Origin: Bacillota bacterium
GTDB lineage: Bacteria; Bacillota; Clostridia; Christensenellales; WQRI01
Assembly (NCBI GenBank): GCA_009786825.1
Contig: WQRI01000005.1
Coordinates: forward strand, 1-48,800
Direction: 5' to 3'
Length of the DNA stretch: 48,800 nucleotides
Shown: in pieces, positions 8,199 to 45,551 of the stretch
How positions within the stretch are numbered: the stretch's first letter is position 1
Layout: each line of letters starts with the position of its first letter
Program-made: the position numbers and the translations under genes
Notes under the pieces: generated by a model
Told to the model about the DNA's origin: nothing
The model's database searches: none
Seen by the model: the letters and a program-made list of their open reading frames with translations, nothing else

Positions 8199-8516
8199 TT
8201 ATTTTAATGGGTATATCCCCCTTTTGTACTTATCTTTTACCTGCTTTAAAATATCCCCATATGTGTTTTCTGTTTCTAATGTCCAATGAGTTGCCGTTTT
8301 TATAAACCACTCCTCGTTTTTAAATGTGCTTAATAAAGTCAACATTCCAGAATAGTCATCTTTTTTACCTGTGCCAAATACTACTAGCATATTGCCTTCT
8401 ATTTTGCACTTTAGATTTACTTCGCGCGCTTGCTCTGCTATACAATCAAACACACTTTGCATTGTAAAACCATAGCGGTCTACTGCACCCTTATCAAACT
8501 TAAATTCCATTCTCAT
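8199..8516 (-). CDS. Hypothetical protein, tandem paralog of 8513..8827
   Basis: Shares MRMEFKFDKGAVDRYGFTMQSVF and EGNMLVVFGTGKKDD with its neighbour; overlaps it by 4 nt (ATGA). Confidence 0.75.
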   Translation of the reverse strand: MRMEFKFDKGAVDRYGFTMQSVFDCIAEQAREVNLKCKIEGNMLVVFGTGKKDDYSGMLTLLSTFKNEEWFIKTATHWTLETENTYGDILKQVKDKYKRGIYPLK

Positions 8517-8827
8517 AGCGGTAATTCCCCCTGTCTGTATTTCTCTCTCACTTGTTTTAAAACATCTTCAAATGTGGTTTCCGTTTCAAATGTCCAATGA
8601 GTTGCTGTTTTTAAAAACCACTCTGAATGACTTAAATCGTGCATCAAACCTAGCATTCCAGATAAGTCATCTTTTTTACCCGTGCCAAATACTACTAGCA
8701 TATTGCCTTCTATTTTGAACTTTAGGTTTACTTCTCGTGCTTGCTCTGCTATGCACTCAAACACACTTTGCATTGTAAAACCATAGCGGTCTACTGCACC
8801 CTTATCAAACTTAAATTCCATTCTCAT
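8513..8827 (-). CDS. Hypothetical protein, tandem paralog of 8199..8516
   Basis: Near-identical N-terminus and central block to 8199..8516. Confidence 0.75.
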   Translation of the reverse strand: MRMEFKFDKGAVDRYGFTMQSVFECIAEQAREVNLKFKIEGNMLVVFGTGKKDDLSGMLGLMHDLSHSEWFLKTATHWTFETETTFEDVLKQVREKYRQGELPL

Positions 8828-8900
8828 AATAATAATTTTCTCCTTATTTAATTTCTGTTTTAATTGCGCCCGCTAGGCGAAGCACTTATTAGGGCAAAAG

Positions 8901-13070: not shown

Positions 13071-13258
13071 TTAATGTTAAATGTTTAATGTTAAATTGTT
13101 TCACCGCTTTACGCGGGTAATTATTTATTTTTGCAAATTGTAAGAAAGGTCTAAACTCCGACTGTTCAAATGCATTTGTTTTAAATGGCTGAAATCATTT
13201 AAAATTTAAAACTTAACATTTAACATTTCTGAATTCTGAATTTTTAATTCTGAATTCG
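13071..13258 (+). repeat. Heptad-arm element between rnfG and rnfD, AATGTTA arms plus adjacent TTCTGAA array
   Basis: Core tttcaccgctttacgcgggtaa...cgactgttcaaatg; 13227-13257 is TTCTGAA TTCTGAA TTTTTAA TTCTGAA TTC. Confidence 0.88.
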
Positions 13259-15662: not shown

Positions 15663-15747
15663 CTTTCTCTCTCCTTTCTAAATGGATTTGTTTTTGATTT
15701 TTATATATGTTTAATTTTAATGCTGTTTTACGCAATTCACAAATAGA

Positions 15748-15804
15748 TTTTGCCCGCGCTAGCGGTGCAACAACCTTTACACTTTACACTCTACACTTTA
15801 CACT
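15748..15804 (-). repeat. Heptad-arm element, GC-box half with ACTTTAC arm
   Basis: tttgcccgcgctagcggtgcaacaacctttacactttacactctacactttacact. Confidence 0.82.
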
Positions 15805-21626: not shown

Positions 21627-21830
21627 AGTGTAAAGTGCAGAGTGTAAAGTGTAGAGTGGCTAAACTCATTAATGCAAAAACTTTTGAACAGTCTGCATTT
21701 TGTGAATGTACGCAATTTGCAAATCAATTTTGCCCGCGCTAGCGGTGAAACCACTTTACACTTTACACTTTACACTTTACACTTTACACTTTACACTTTA
21801 CACTTTAATTTTACATTTTACACTTTACAT
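21627..21830 (-). repeat. Heptad-arm element, ACTTTAC arms (right arm with about ten units)
   Basis: gtgtaaagtgcagagtgtaaagtgtagagtgg...cttttgaacagtctgcattttg...gcccgcgctagcggtg...ccactttacactttacac. Confidence 0.92.
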
Positions 21831-29143: not shown

Positions 29144-29303
29144 TTGAACAATGAACAGTTAACAATGAACAATGGTTGCACCGCTAGCGCGGGCAATATT
29201 AAAAATTTAGCGAATGAAAATTGTAACGTTCAAACGTATTGCATTTAATGCATACAACCATTGTTCAATGTTCAATGTTCAATGTTCAATGTTCAATGTT
29301 CAA
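29143..29303 (+). repeat. Heptad-arm element, CAATGTT arms
   Basis: attgaacaatgaacagttaacaatgaacaatgg-ttgcaccgctagcgcgggcaa ... ccattgttcaatgttcaatgttcaatgttcaatgttcaatgttcaat. Confidence 0.92.
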
Positions 29304-29473
29304 TAAACATAATCATCTAGCATTTCTGCGGTTGTTGTTTCTTGCAAAAATTTTAGCAAATAATATATTAAATTTGCCTCGTAAGAATTAAGCGTAAGCG
29401 TTACGCATAATGTATTTTGTTGTTCTTTCGCTTCTATCAACTTTTCTAAAAGCGCCTTTGTTCTTTTATCCAT
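29300..29473 (-). CDS. Hypothetical small protein divergent from the Xre regulator
   Basis: Start chosen at MDKRTKALLEK; divergent from 29572 gene across a palindrome. Confidence 0.6.
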   Translation of the reverse strand: MDKRTKALLEKLIEAKEQQNTLCVTLTLNSYEANLIYYLLKFLQETTTAEMLDDYVY

Positions 29474-29571: not shown

Positions 29572-29778
29572 ATGGATACAATAGGAAAACGAATTGCGTG
29601 GTTAAGAAAAGATGAAAACCTTACGCAAGTACAACTAGCGCAAAGTATTAATGTTACTGAGCGGTCTATACAAATGTGGGAAGCAGATGTTGCTATACCG
29701 GGTGGGCAATCTTTAATTGCGCTTGCTAACTTTTTTAAAACTTCTAGCGATTTTATACTTGGCATAAAGCCACACTAA
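29572..29778 (+). CDS. Xre-family HTH transcriptional regulator
   Basis: IGKRIAWLRKDENLTQVQLAQSINVTERSIQMWE. Confidence 0.93.
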   Translation: MDTIGKRIAWLRKDENLTQVQLAQSINVTERSIQMWEADVAIPGGQSLIALANFFKTSSDFILGIKPH

Positions 29779-29812: not shown

Positions 29813-29844
29813 AAAAAGTTACCATACTACTTAGGTAACTTTTT
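29813..29844 (+). terminator. Rho-independent terminator
   Basis: aaaaagttacc - loop - ggtaacttttttta. Confidence 0.88.
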
Positions 29845-29865
29845 TATTTAGACACTCAAAAATTA

Positions 29866-29923
29866 ATCTTGCCCGCGCCAGCGGTGTAACCATTTAACAT
29901 TTAAAATTTAACATTTAAAATTT
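29866..29923 (-). repeat. Heptad-arm element, GC-box half with AATGTTA-type arm
   Basis: atcttgcccgcgccagcggtgtaaccatttaacatttaaaatttaacatttaaaat. Confidence 0.85.
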
Positions 29924-29977
29924 TTACCGCGCTAGCGGTGTAACAATTCATAATTCATAATTCACAATTCATAATTA
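29924..29977 (-). repeat. Heptad-arm element, GC-box half with AATTCAT arm, in tandem with the previous half
   Basis: ttaccgcgctagcggtgtaacaattcataattcataattcacaattcataatt. Confidence 0.85.
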
Positions 29978-29984
29978 AAAAACT

Positions 29985-30719
29985 ATGTTAACTTCATTTT
30001 TTCGTTCAATTATAATATTTTTAATATTGCTAACAATAGTTAGGCTTATGGGCAAGCGCCAAATTGGCGAGATGCAACCTTTCGAACTTGTTATAACTAT
30101 TATACTAGCAGAACTAGCGGCAATACCTATGGCGGATAATTCTATCCCCATTTATTATGGTATAATTCCCGTGCTTGCTGTTTTTTTGTTGCACGTTGCG
30201 CTTACAAAACTTGGAAACCGCTCTATATTTATGTCGCGCCTTATAAGTGGCAACCCTATGATAGTTATAGACAGAGAGGGCATAAACATAAAAAATATGA
30301 ATGCTATGGATATGTCTTACAACGACTTAATAGAAAAACTAAGGGTTGCGGGGCATTTTGATGTTAGTGATATCGCGTACGCCATATTCGAGACAAATGG
30401 ACAACTGAGCATATTACCAAAAGACAAGCCACCAACACTTGCTGATATGAACGAATTAACATCTAAGCAAAAGCCCATAGATACGCCACCCCCTGCCCTA
30501 CCTGTTGTGCTAATATCAGAGGGCAAAATAAACAAAAGCAACTTAAAACTTACTTTAATAGATGAGTGTAAACTAAAAAGTATTCTAGCCTACAAGCAAG
30601 TAGACAGCATTAAAGATATTTATTTGCTAACACTAGACAACAACGGCAAAGTAACCTTGCAAACAAACACGGGCGAGTTTAAAACCTTTAACATAAATTA
30701 CTTTAGCGACAAATGGTAA
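29985..30719 (+). CDS. DUF421 (YetF-like) membrane protein
   Basis: LTIVRLMGKRQIGEMQPFELVITIILAELAAIPM characteristic of DUF421. Confidence 0.92.
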   Translation: MLTSFFRSIIIFLILLTIVRLMGKRQIGEMQPFELVITIILAELAAIPMADNSIPIYYGIIPVLAVFLLHVALTKLGNRSIFMSRLISGNPMIVIDREGINIKNMNAMDMSYNDLIEKLRVAGHFDVSDIAYAIFETNGQLSILPKDKPPTLADMNELTSKQKPIDTPPPALPVVLISEGKINKSNLKLTLIDECKLKSILAYKQVDSIKDIYLLTLDNNGKVTLQTNTGEFKTFNINYFSDKW

Positions 30720-30726
30720 TTTGTTA

Positions 30727-30884
30727 GTGTAAAATGTAAAGTGTAGAGTGTAAAGTGGTTTCACCGCTAGCGCGGGCAAGATTTTGTTTGCAAATTGTGT
30801 GTTGATACAAAATGCAGACTGTTCAAAAGTTTTTGTATTAAAGAAGTGTAGGCACTTTACACTTTACACTCTACACTTCACACT
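30727..30884 (+). repeat. Heptad-arm element, ACTTTAC arms (near-identical to 31325..31482)
   Basis: gtgtaaaatgtaaagtgtagagtgtaaagtggtttcaccgctagcgcgggcaagatttt... Confidence 0.95.
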
Positions 30885-31317: not shown

Positions 31318-31324
31318 GTATGAA

Positions 31325-31482
31325 GTGTAAAATGTAAAGTGTAGAGTGTAAAGTGGTTTCACCGCTAGCGCGGGCAAGATTTTATTTGCAAATTGTGTGT
31401 GAATACAAAATGCAGACTGTTCAAAAGTTTTTGTATTAAAGAGTGTAGGCACTTTACACTTTACATTCTACACTTTACACTC
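31325..31482 (+). repeat. Heptad-arm element, ACTTTAC arms (near-identical to 30727..30884)
   Basis: Same left arm and core as 30727..30884 with a few substitutions. Confidence 0.95.
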
Positions 31483-35740: not shown

Positions 35741-35917
35741 GTGTACAAATTACAATGTACAAATTACAAATGTTTTATTTGCTTATTGCCCTAACGTTTG
35801 AACAGTCGTAATCTGCTACTTTAACTTAGTTCAATTTTTGTAAATACGCATTGCGTACTGTTCAAAAGTTTTTGCTAATATGAGTTTAATATTTGTAATT
35901 TGTAATTTGTAATTTGC
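35741..35917. repeat. Heptad-arm element, AATTTGT arms, two GTTCAA-type ends
   Basis: gtgtacaaattacaatgtacaaattacaaatg...gtttgaacagt...actgttcaaaag...atttgtaatttgtaatttgtaatttg. Confidence 0.88.
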
Positions 35918-43626: not shown

Positions 43627-43811
43627 AATGTAAAGTGTAAAATGTAGAGTGTAAAGTGTTGTAACTCATTAAATAAATTCACTTTTGAACAGCCTGCAAT
43701 TAGCACTTATACAAATTTGCTAGTAAATATTTCCCGCGCTAGCGGGTGTAGCCACTTTACACTTTACACTCTACACTAACTCAACTCTCAACTCTACACT
43801 CTCAACTCACT
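43627..43811 (-). repeat. Heptad-arm element, ACTTTAC arms running into an AACTCTC-type heptad array
   Basis: aatgtaaagtgtaaaatgtagagtgtaaagtg...cttttgaacagcctgca...cccgcgctagcggg...cactttacactttacactctacactaactcaactctcaactctacactctcaactcac. Confidence 0.92.
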
Positions 43812-45551
43812 AAACTCTGTACTTAGCCACTCTCGCCTGTTACGTAAAAAGTTTAGCAAAAATTCTACTTGCCCGCTAAAAGTGTCTATTTGTTGAATGC
43901 TTGAGGGGACTGCCCACATCTGCGTGCCTAAAATATCCCAACGCTTGAAGTTTCTCTCAAAGTCTTGCTTGTAGGTTGTGCTTAGATACTCTATTAGTTG
44001 TAGCGTATGCTCTAGGTGGCTGTCTTTTACTTCTGACCACCTTTGGTTTAGTAAGTCTACAAATTGCGGTACGCGAATTAAGTCTCTGAACCACACGTGA
44101 TGTGTCGCCCAAAGCCCCCTATAACTTGTAGCACTTTGCCTTACGCAACTACCGCCAATAAATACGCAATAGTCTGCAACCCTATCTTTATTGCCAGCCG
44201 CAACATCAAAATCCCAAATATGCCCAAGCACTAACCTTTTGTTGCCCGCTTCAGCACTACCCGCTGAATGCTGTCCGCTGTTCCCTGAACGCTGTAGCGC
44301 TTCAGCGCTACTCGCTGTTCGCTGAACGCTGTTCCCTGCAGCGCCGTGCGTAGCAACGCGCGGCGCTGCTATATTCATAAACACACTTGCGCCGAATACA
44401 TCAAAGTTTTTATACCACTCTTGCACTATATAAAAATCTATAAACGAGCCTACATCTATAACATTATTAATTGCGTCCCAATCCCTTGTGGCTATAACAT
44501 CGTGCACGTTTTGCAAAAAGTCGCGCGCGTACTCTTTATGCGCGCGCGTAAGGCGCGACCCGCTCGGGTACCTAATCTCGTACGCTCGCATTCTAAGCGA
44601 GCCATTTGTGTTTTGTTGTGGCTCACCGCGAGTATTGCGCGGGTTAACCAAAATGTAGTCTTCCCACTCTATATAGCCGTTTGTGGCTCTGTTGTCGTGC
44701 GCGCGCGTGTTAAGTTCTATATAATACTCAGATAAAGTCGGGTCTGCGTTAAACTGTGCTTGCACGCGCCCGGGCGCAACTTCTCTATGCTCGGCAAGCA
44801 TATAAATGCCCATATAGTTTCCGTTTACGTAAACGTGCATATGGCGCGCCTTTGTTGTCCACGCTTGATACTCTAACAGCCCGCCCAAAAAGTACGCCGA
44901 GTAGTTTCGTAAAAGACTTAAGTCTTGGTAATTTGCAATAAAAAGCCAATCTCTGTAAACGTTGCCGTTCCCAACCCCTAGCATATCTCTTGCTTGTGCA
45001 AACCTTATTCTAAAAGGCTTTTTGCCGTAGCGCTCGCCCTGCCACCACGAAGAATTTCCGCGCCCTCTAATCTGCCCCAAAGCACCCTCAAAGTTATGTC
45101 CCTCGTGCGCGCCCTTAACAGAAAAACTTATGCCACCTTGCCAATCTCTTGTAACAAAATCTAGATGCCCATTCTCACGGCTTGCATTAGGGTTTGTAGT
45201 AATGTTATTCGGCACATCTATATGAAGCGAAGCAAACGCATTAAAGTGCTTGTAGCGCGAAGCAGGATTCCAAGCGTCGTCGTTGTCGTTATTGTTGTCA
45301 TCACCCTTGTTATCGTAGCCCCCATCACTATCTTTATCGCTTCCACTACCGCTATCGTTATCGTTGTCGCTACTACCACTTCCACTACCGCTATCATTAT
45401 CTTTGTCACTACCGCTTCCGCCCGTACCGCCGTTCTCTGTGCTTCCATTCTGATAGCCATTATCACCACTACCATTGTCGTTAGCCAAACACGCAACTAA
45501 CGAAAAAGCAACAACCAAAATCAACAAACTTGCTAATAACTTTTTTTTCAT
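43794..45551 (-). CDS. CotH-kinase-family lipoprotein
   Basis: Lipobox VACLA, Ser/Gly/Asp linker, RGRGNSSWWQGERYGKKPFRIRF, GHIWDFDVAAGN. Confidence 0.92.
   Translation of the reverse strand: MKKKLLASLLILVVAFSLVACLANDNGSGDNGYQNGSTENGGTGGSGSDKDNDSGSGSGSSDNDNDSGSGSDKDSDGGYDNKGDDNNNDNDDAWNPASRYKHFNAFASLHIDVPNNITTNPNASRENGHLDFVTRDWQGGISFSVKGAHEGHNFEGALGQIRGRGNSSWWQGERYGKKPFRIRFAQARDMLGVGNGNVYRDWLFIANYQDLSLLRNYSAYFLGGLLEYQAWTTKARHMHVYVNGNYMGIYMLAEHREVAPGRVQAQFNADPTLSEYYIELNTRAHDNRATNGYIEWEDYILVNPRNTRGEPQQNTNGSLRMRAYEIRYPSGSRLTRAHKEYARDFLQNVHDVIATRDWDAINNVIDVGSFIDFYIVQEWYKNFDVFGASVFMNIAAPRVATHGAAGNSVQRTASSAEALQRSGNSGQHSAGSAEAGNKRLVLGHIWDFDVAAGNKDRVADYCVFIGGSCVRQSATSYRGLWATHHVWFRDLIRVPQFVDLLNQRWSEVKDSHLEHTLQLIEYLSTTYKQDFERNFKRWDILGTQMWAVPSSIQQIDTFSGQVEFLLNFLRNRREWLSTEFSELRV
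44246..44368. repeat. GC-rich heptad (NNCGCTG) array plus 13-bp hairpin inside the CotH-kinase gene
   Basis: ...TCCGCTG TTCCCTG AACGCTG TAGCGCTTCAGCGCTA CTCGCTG TTCGCTG AACGCTG TTCCCTG; hairpin CAGCGCCGTGCGT-AGCA-ACGCGCGGCGCTG at 44339-44368. Confidence 0.85.

Follow-up and report, generated by a model that had tools for sequence, protein, structure and literature searches.

Intervening-sequence (IVS) elements, known for decades, lie inside the 23S rRNA gene (in helix 9, 25 or 45) and are excised by RNase III. In Coxiella the terminal inverted repeats of the IVS pair over 28 bp to make a stem, and heptameric repeats lie in tandem upstream of the ORF; where the IVS came from and what S23p does are published as unclear, mobility being one of the guesses (PMC4990558). 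The elements considered here come from a 1.70-Mb Clostridia MAG (assembly 85.8% complete, 1.52 Mb read), of which the window, the whole 48,800-nucleotide stretch that was analysed, is contig C5. They resemble the IVS (PF05635/TIGR02436) in that complementary terminal arms surround a loop in which an S23p ORF is optional, three members holding S23p, and in that the ends of complete members can pair as a long stem, although the tandem in the window has no left arm. They differ in location, the members read being flanked by protein-coding genes, in number, with about 200 copies, and in carrying several arm types. Because the members read lie outside rRNA, strict IVS membership fails, and they are best read as a modular, IVS-like family of intergenic elements.

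The SDRs of Nostoc, described by Elhai et al. in 2008, are reportedly small hairpin repeats of 21-27 nt, embedded in heptameric arrays, with copies nested and without flanking inverted arms of one type; set against this definition, the core here is about 100 nt long and stands between facing arms. The TAACTGA heptamer arrays of Beggiatoaceae, cyanobacteria and Bacteroidetes are abundant and intergenic, and Microcystis mixes heptamer types (PMC4679880), but these arrays are described as direct repeats, with no conserved core or same-type facing arm. BOX elements of streptococci are modular composite intergenic repeats, variable in module number and inserted into one another (PMC3049150). That build is common to the family here, whereas the modules are others, and neither heptad arms of exchangeable type nor a link to S23p is described in the passages covered (PMC3049150). 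REPINs and RAYT-mobilised REP elements are non-autonomous and use short palindromes as modules and doublets (PMC3116915); such palindromic modules and doublets are found here too, but the genome gives 0 matches to the Y1 (TnpA-REP) transposase (PF01797; assembly 85.8% complete), and in the core consensus ...nTTgCCCGCGCtAGCGGTGaAAcc neither GTAG nor CGTC stands as a tag beside the GC-box palindrome. With MITEs the family shares terminal inverted repeats and spread to unrelated sites; it differs in that the inverted repeats vary in type from copy to copy. The heptads leave the outer ends of members ambiguous in a check for target-site duplications, and DDE_Tnp_1 (PF01609) is absent from the genome.

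Direct reading confirms the observation of the initial annotation that two GC boxes and two heptad arrays occupy 29866-29977 of the window. Each box carries an array of about 32 nt, of different type, and the two stand head to tail, 54 nt apart, at 29857-29976, in the gap between a gene for a 68-aa HTH_3 regulator (29572..29778; PF01381, E 2.6e-11) and a gene for a YetF/DUF421 membrane protein (29985..30719), whose earlier assignment to DUF421 is upheld by a PF04239 match (E 3.2e-30); all features of this locus are on the + strand. Unit 1 reads, from 29873, CCGCGCCAGCGG + tgtaacc + CATTTAACATTTAAAATTTAACATTTAAAATTT (29891-29923), and unit 2, from 29927, CCGCGCTAGCGG + tgtaac + AATTCATAATTCATAATTCACAATTCATAATT (29945-29976); they are 54 nt each, abut one another and are 72% alike. 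A flank word, AGCGGTGTAAC, is found 15 times in the window with at most 1 mismatch, against 1.3 expected.

The core model detects both units. Right-end module 1 (29857..29923; model positions 63-99, 31.4 bits) consists of about 20 nt of the core 3' end, GC box 1 (29873..29884), a CCGC-GCCA-GCGG hairpin that folds with 4 bp, and a type-B arm of 4.7 heptads, (ATTTAAC ATTTAAA)n, at 29891..29923 (TRF, period 7 and 14). The heptad array previously given as TTTAACA is thus present, in the refined form of alternating ATTTAAC and ATTTAAA. Right-end module 2 (29916..29976; model positions 68-99, 23.2 bits) retains about 8 nt of the core, followed by GC box 2 (29927..29938), a CCGC-GCTA-GCGG hairpin that folds with 5 bp including the flanking A/T, and by a type-E arm, (AATTCAT)4.6, at 29945..29976 (reading and TRF); the DUF421 start codon is 8 nt beyond its end. 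No left arm was found upstream of the tandem. It is preceded by the HTH gene and then by a stem-loop (29813..29844; DNA fold z -3.8) that is AT-rich, includes a T run and resembles a terminator; a consensus scan called no terminator there. What had been termed half elements are indeed incomplete, and more precisely both are right-end modules only, without left arm or full core. As regards assembly error, the whole 112-nt tandem could fit inside one short read. The homologues of the DUF421 protein found in Clostridia MAGs, Borkfalkia and Gallimonas among them, are at most 49% identical in the best segment, and no such heptad arrays lie upstream of their genes.

Both modules belong to a family of about 200 scattered copies, mostly ORF-less and intergenic. 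The 1.52 Mb contain 505 heptad-periodic arrays, where block-shuffled DNA has 1 and 0.96 Mb of relatives (109 loci) has 10; GC boxes with at most 1 mismatch number 165 genome-wide. The arm types are A (ACTTTAC), B (ATTTAAC/ATTTAAA), C (ATTGTTC), D (ATTTGTA), E (AATTCAT), F (ACTTGTT) and a further, GC-rich type G. Most complete copies run from a left arm through a core of about 100 nt (consensus ggtTaaActCATTAaatnCannaCtTTTgAACAGtctgcanTttg...gcAaTTTGCAAAaataaAtnTTgCCCGCGCtAGCGGTGaAAcc) and a GC box to a right arm, and arrays that face each other about 90 nt apart are of the same heptad type in 121 of about 140 pairs, about 15-20 being mixed. When the left and right halves are modelled separately, the result is 143 copies of form L>R>, 12 of form L>L< (type D wherever the arm could be typed) and many single modules; the window, C67 and C76 each show a tandem R>R>. 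One-sided copies comprise 44 solitary 5' and 32 solitary 3' ends; with truncation on both sides, 5'-truncating retroposition is not supported. Dispersed repeats, GTCATTCTGAGCGAAGCGAAGAATCTAGGC...GTTCAGGGTGAC and GGGTCACGGGGACGT...GACCCAA, are nested inside some cores (e.g. C69:7600-7800).

In the window, complete members with type-A arms lie at 21627..21829 on the + strand (left arm, core, GC box and right arm; core model 86.9 bits at 21658-21755, arms by TRF) and on the - strand at 30726..30884 and 31323..31481, the cores of the latter two being 96% alike (core comparison and core model). A complete member with type-C arms is at 29145..29304 (- strand; TRF and core model), an L>L< member, two left modules face to face with type-D arms, at 35742..35916 (no strand assigned; half models), and a solitary right-end module with a type-A arm at 15721..15804 (+ strand; core model match 15721-15773, arm by TRF). 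Compound arrays are seen at 13195-13257, where a B arm runs into E-type heptads, and at 43753-43818, where an A arm runs into CTCAACT heptads. Two other repeats were recorded: at 8216-8828 a 311-nt unit in two tandem copies, 86% alike, spans short ORFs, and a separate, well-conserved repeat at seven loci (C1:96442, C8:8035, C9:3657, C18:2482, C21:12110, C22:11457 and C30:5555) has TCGCGAAGCGG and CAGCGAAGCGG at a distance of 57 nt, with atcatatcataaaagaatttcc in the interval. Rfam matched nothing in window positions 20000-46000, even with the threshold at E<=1; the pattern CCGCGCTAGCGGTG was absent from 395 other genomes of the order; viral contigs and phages gave no match. A left-core pattern had two matches in 147 other genomes of the class Clostridia, both without heptad arrays and in coding DNA, which look like chance.

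Copies with cores 91-96% alike lose similarity at the outer arm edges, beyond which the flanks are unrelated. Unrelated flanks around cores at least 90% alike indicate that the element has moved, and the loss of similarity at the outer arm ends indicates that the whole unit was copied to unrelated sites. Complete members between ORFs lie between codirectional genes in 134/154 cases and between divergent genes in 4/154, the background by simple ORF calling being 666 codirectional and 118 divergent of 912 gaps; in codirectional gaps the median distance of a member to the preceding stop is 1 nt, and to the following start 10 nt. No orientation bias of members was seen. The mean MFE of complete members is -45.6 versus -23.7 for shuffled sequences; the stem shows no strand asymmetry of the kind that an RNA stem should leave (G-U 104 vs A-C 84, folding energy equal on both strands), which counts against the RNA-stem reading, and RNAalifold found no consensus structure in the aligned cores. 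The one-type arms of a complete copy can pair into a long imperfect stem, and copies transcribed between operon genes would then present an IVS-like stem, while the tandem halves, which lack a left arm, are most probably inert remnants in the leader of the DUF421 gene. Two reverse transcriptases were considered as helpers of the element and set aside, no link to it being shown: one, of UG17 type, stands beside an RT-associated SLATT protein in a candidate defence pair (C28, L250:988-2996), and the other (C10, L251:928-2346) has in-gene repeats (SDKLSNKLLSEQRAGN) and only distant matches, to group II intron RT models.

Arm exchange occurs within the family. Mixed-arm elements are present in the genome; a core with B arms and another with A arms are 87% alike; and core similarity is weakly tied to arm type, the nearest neighbour being of the same type in 59/97 cases versus 32 expected. 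The gene end TTAGTCCATTCCCCACTC is common to about 20 paralogous loci (e.g. C12:32472, C40:14368, C77:5669), in which left arms C, E and A are joined to right arms F and E in several combinations, and C51, of the same set, has a left arm and truncated core with no right module. This gene end reads ...GMD stop, and in most of the copies the member is directly behind the stop codon. The two arms of an element, though of one type, are not identical: facing heptads are less alike than permuted pairs, in the facing register only (z of -3.2 for type A, -3.0 for D and -1.9 for B, with no effect for C), and a perfect 28-nt mirror occurs in 0/101 arm pairs, a count that short-read assembly bias against perfect palindromes could lower. 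This pattern of facing arms, one in type and yet not identical, is unusual, and since facing heptads agree less than permuted pairs, arm-to-arm copying (quasi-palindrome correction) was rejected as a recent process.

The initial annotation had offered arm replacement or nested insertion as the origin of the tandem, which it regarded as a snapshot of how arms change. That arms can be exchanged relative to the core is borne out by the mixed-arm copies, the A/B switch and the paralogous loci; the locus itself is one example and no unique snapshot, because the head-to-tail arrangement of right ends is found again at three places, with a nearly constant spacing of 54-56 nt: C67 has two copies of a D-E tandem, C61 has D followed by C, and C1:81256 has B followed by B, the second unit being attached to a complete element. 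At C1:81256 the second unit matches the right arm of an element 2 kb away over 35/35 nt, a stretch that includes the heptad ATTCACC; in this context the variant is rare, with three places genome-wide, and the match points to copying of a right-end module. We consider it probable, at about 0.6, that the tandem consists of two right-end modules of a dispersed modular family, joined by accretion between members, the complete copies of which form an IVS-like stem. Through recombination or copying between members, an arm already in place would have gained a further right-end module at its outer end; the different arm of that module would have been brought in by the donor or acquired afterwards by arm exchange. 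Accretion is favoured because of the added unit at C1:81256, the recurrent tandems and the separate places in the genome at which the closest copies of units 1 and 2 are found.

The main rival, although we think it unlikely, is that slippage or unequal crossing over duplicated one right-end module and gene conversion then swapped the distal arm from B to E. A same-type tandem such as that at C1:81256 is what a duplication would leave, the D-E pair at C67 is itself locally duplicated, and the D-arm/box junction is 94% alike between C67 and C61, whose distal arms, E and C, differ. Against this, the window units are only 72% alike, their GC-box loops and core remnants differ, and the different places of their nearest copies favour separate origins. 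Loss of left arms and cores from two adjacent complete elements, leaving two right ends, would account for the unequal core remnants of the two units and has a counterpart in the similar numbers of copies truncated on either side, but it requires two deletions that both halted just before a GC box and sits poorly with the recurrent spacing; we regard it as improbable. Insertion of one mobile element into another has a precedent in the GAGCGAAGCGAAG-type repeats that sit inside the cores of other family members; at the tandem, however, arm 1 is of standard length, unit 2 begins at its outer edge and nothing is interrupted, which makes nested insertion very improbable. Accretion of right-end modules accordingly remains the preferred account.

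The S23p-bearing copies hint at the identity of the elements. The genome has four PF05635 genes for S23p, the four-helix-bundle protein of the IVS, and the facing same-type arm pairs that lie 250-700 nt apart around a single ORF with no array between are exactly three (on C10, C14 and C59, none in the window), all of which enclose S23p; on C10 the gene lies between left and right modules of the usual kind. The fourth gene, on C1, has GC-rich, heptad-like flanks, with an array called on one side. In relatives, S23p lies between facing heptad arms at L262 and L172, so that the link is based on three loci in this genome and two in relatives; heptad arrays also occur near S23p at L268 and L269, and none at 13 other S23p loci of the order. 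More tentatively, the family may be a non-rRNA branch of the IVS that spreads with the help of S23p, in which arms have to be of one type to pair, a perfect mirror is avoided, and end modules are swapped and stacked to give compound states. About 200 ORF-less and three S23p-bearing copies outside rRNA, apparently of one element, would make the mobility guess testable.
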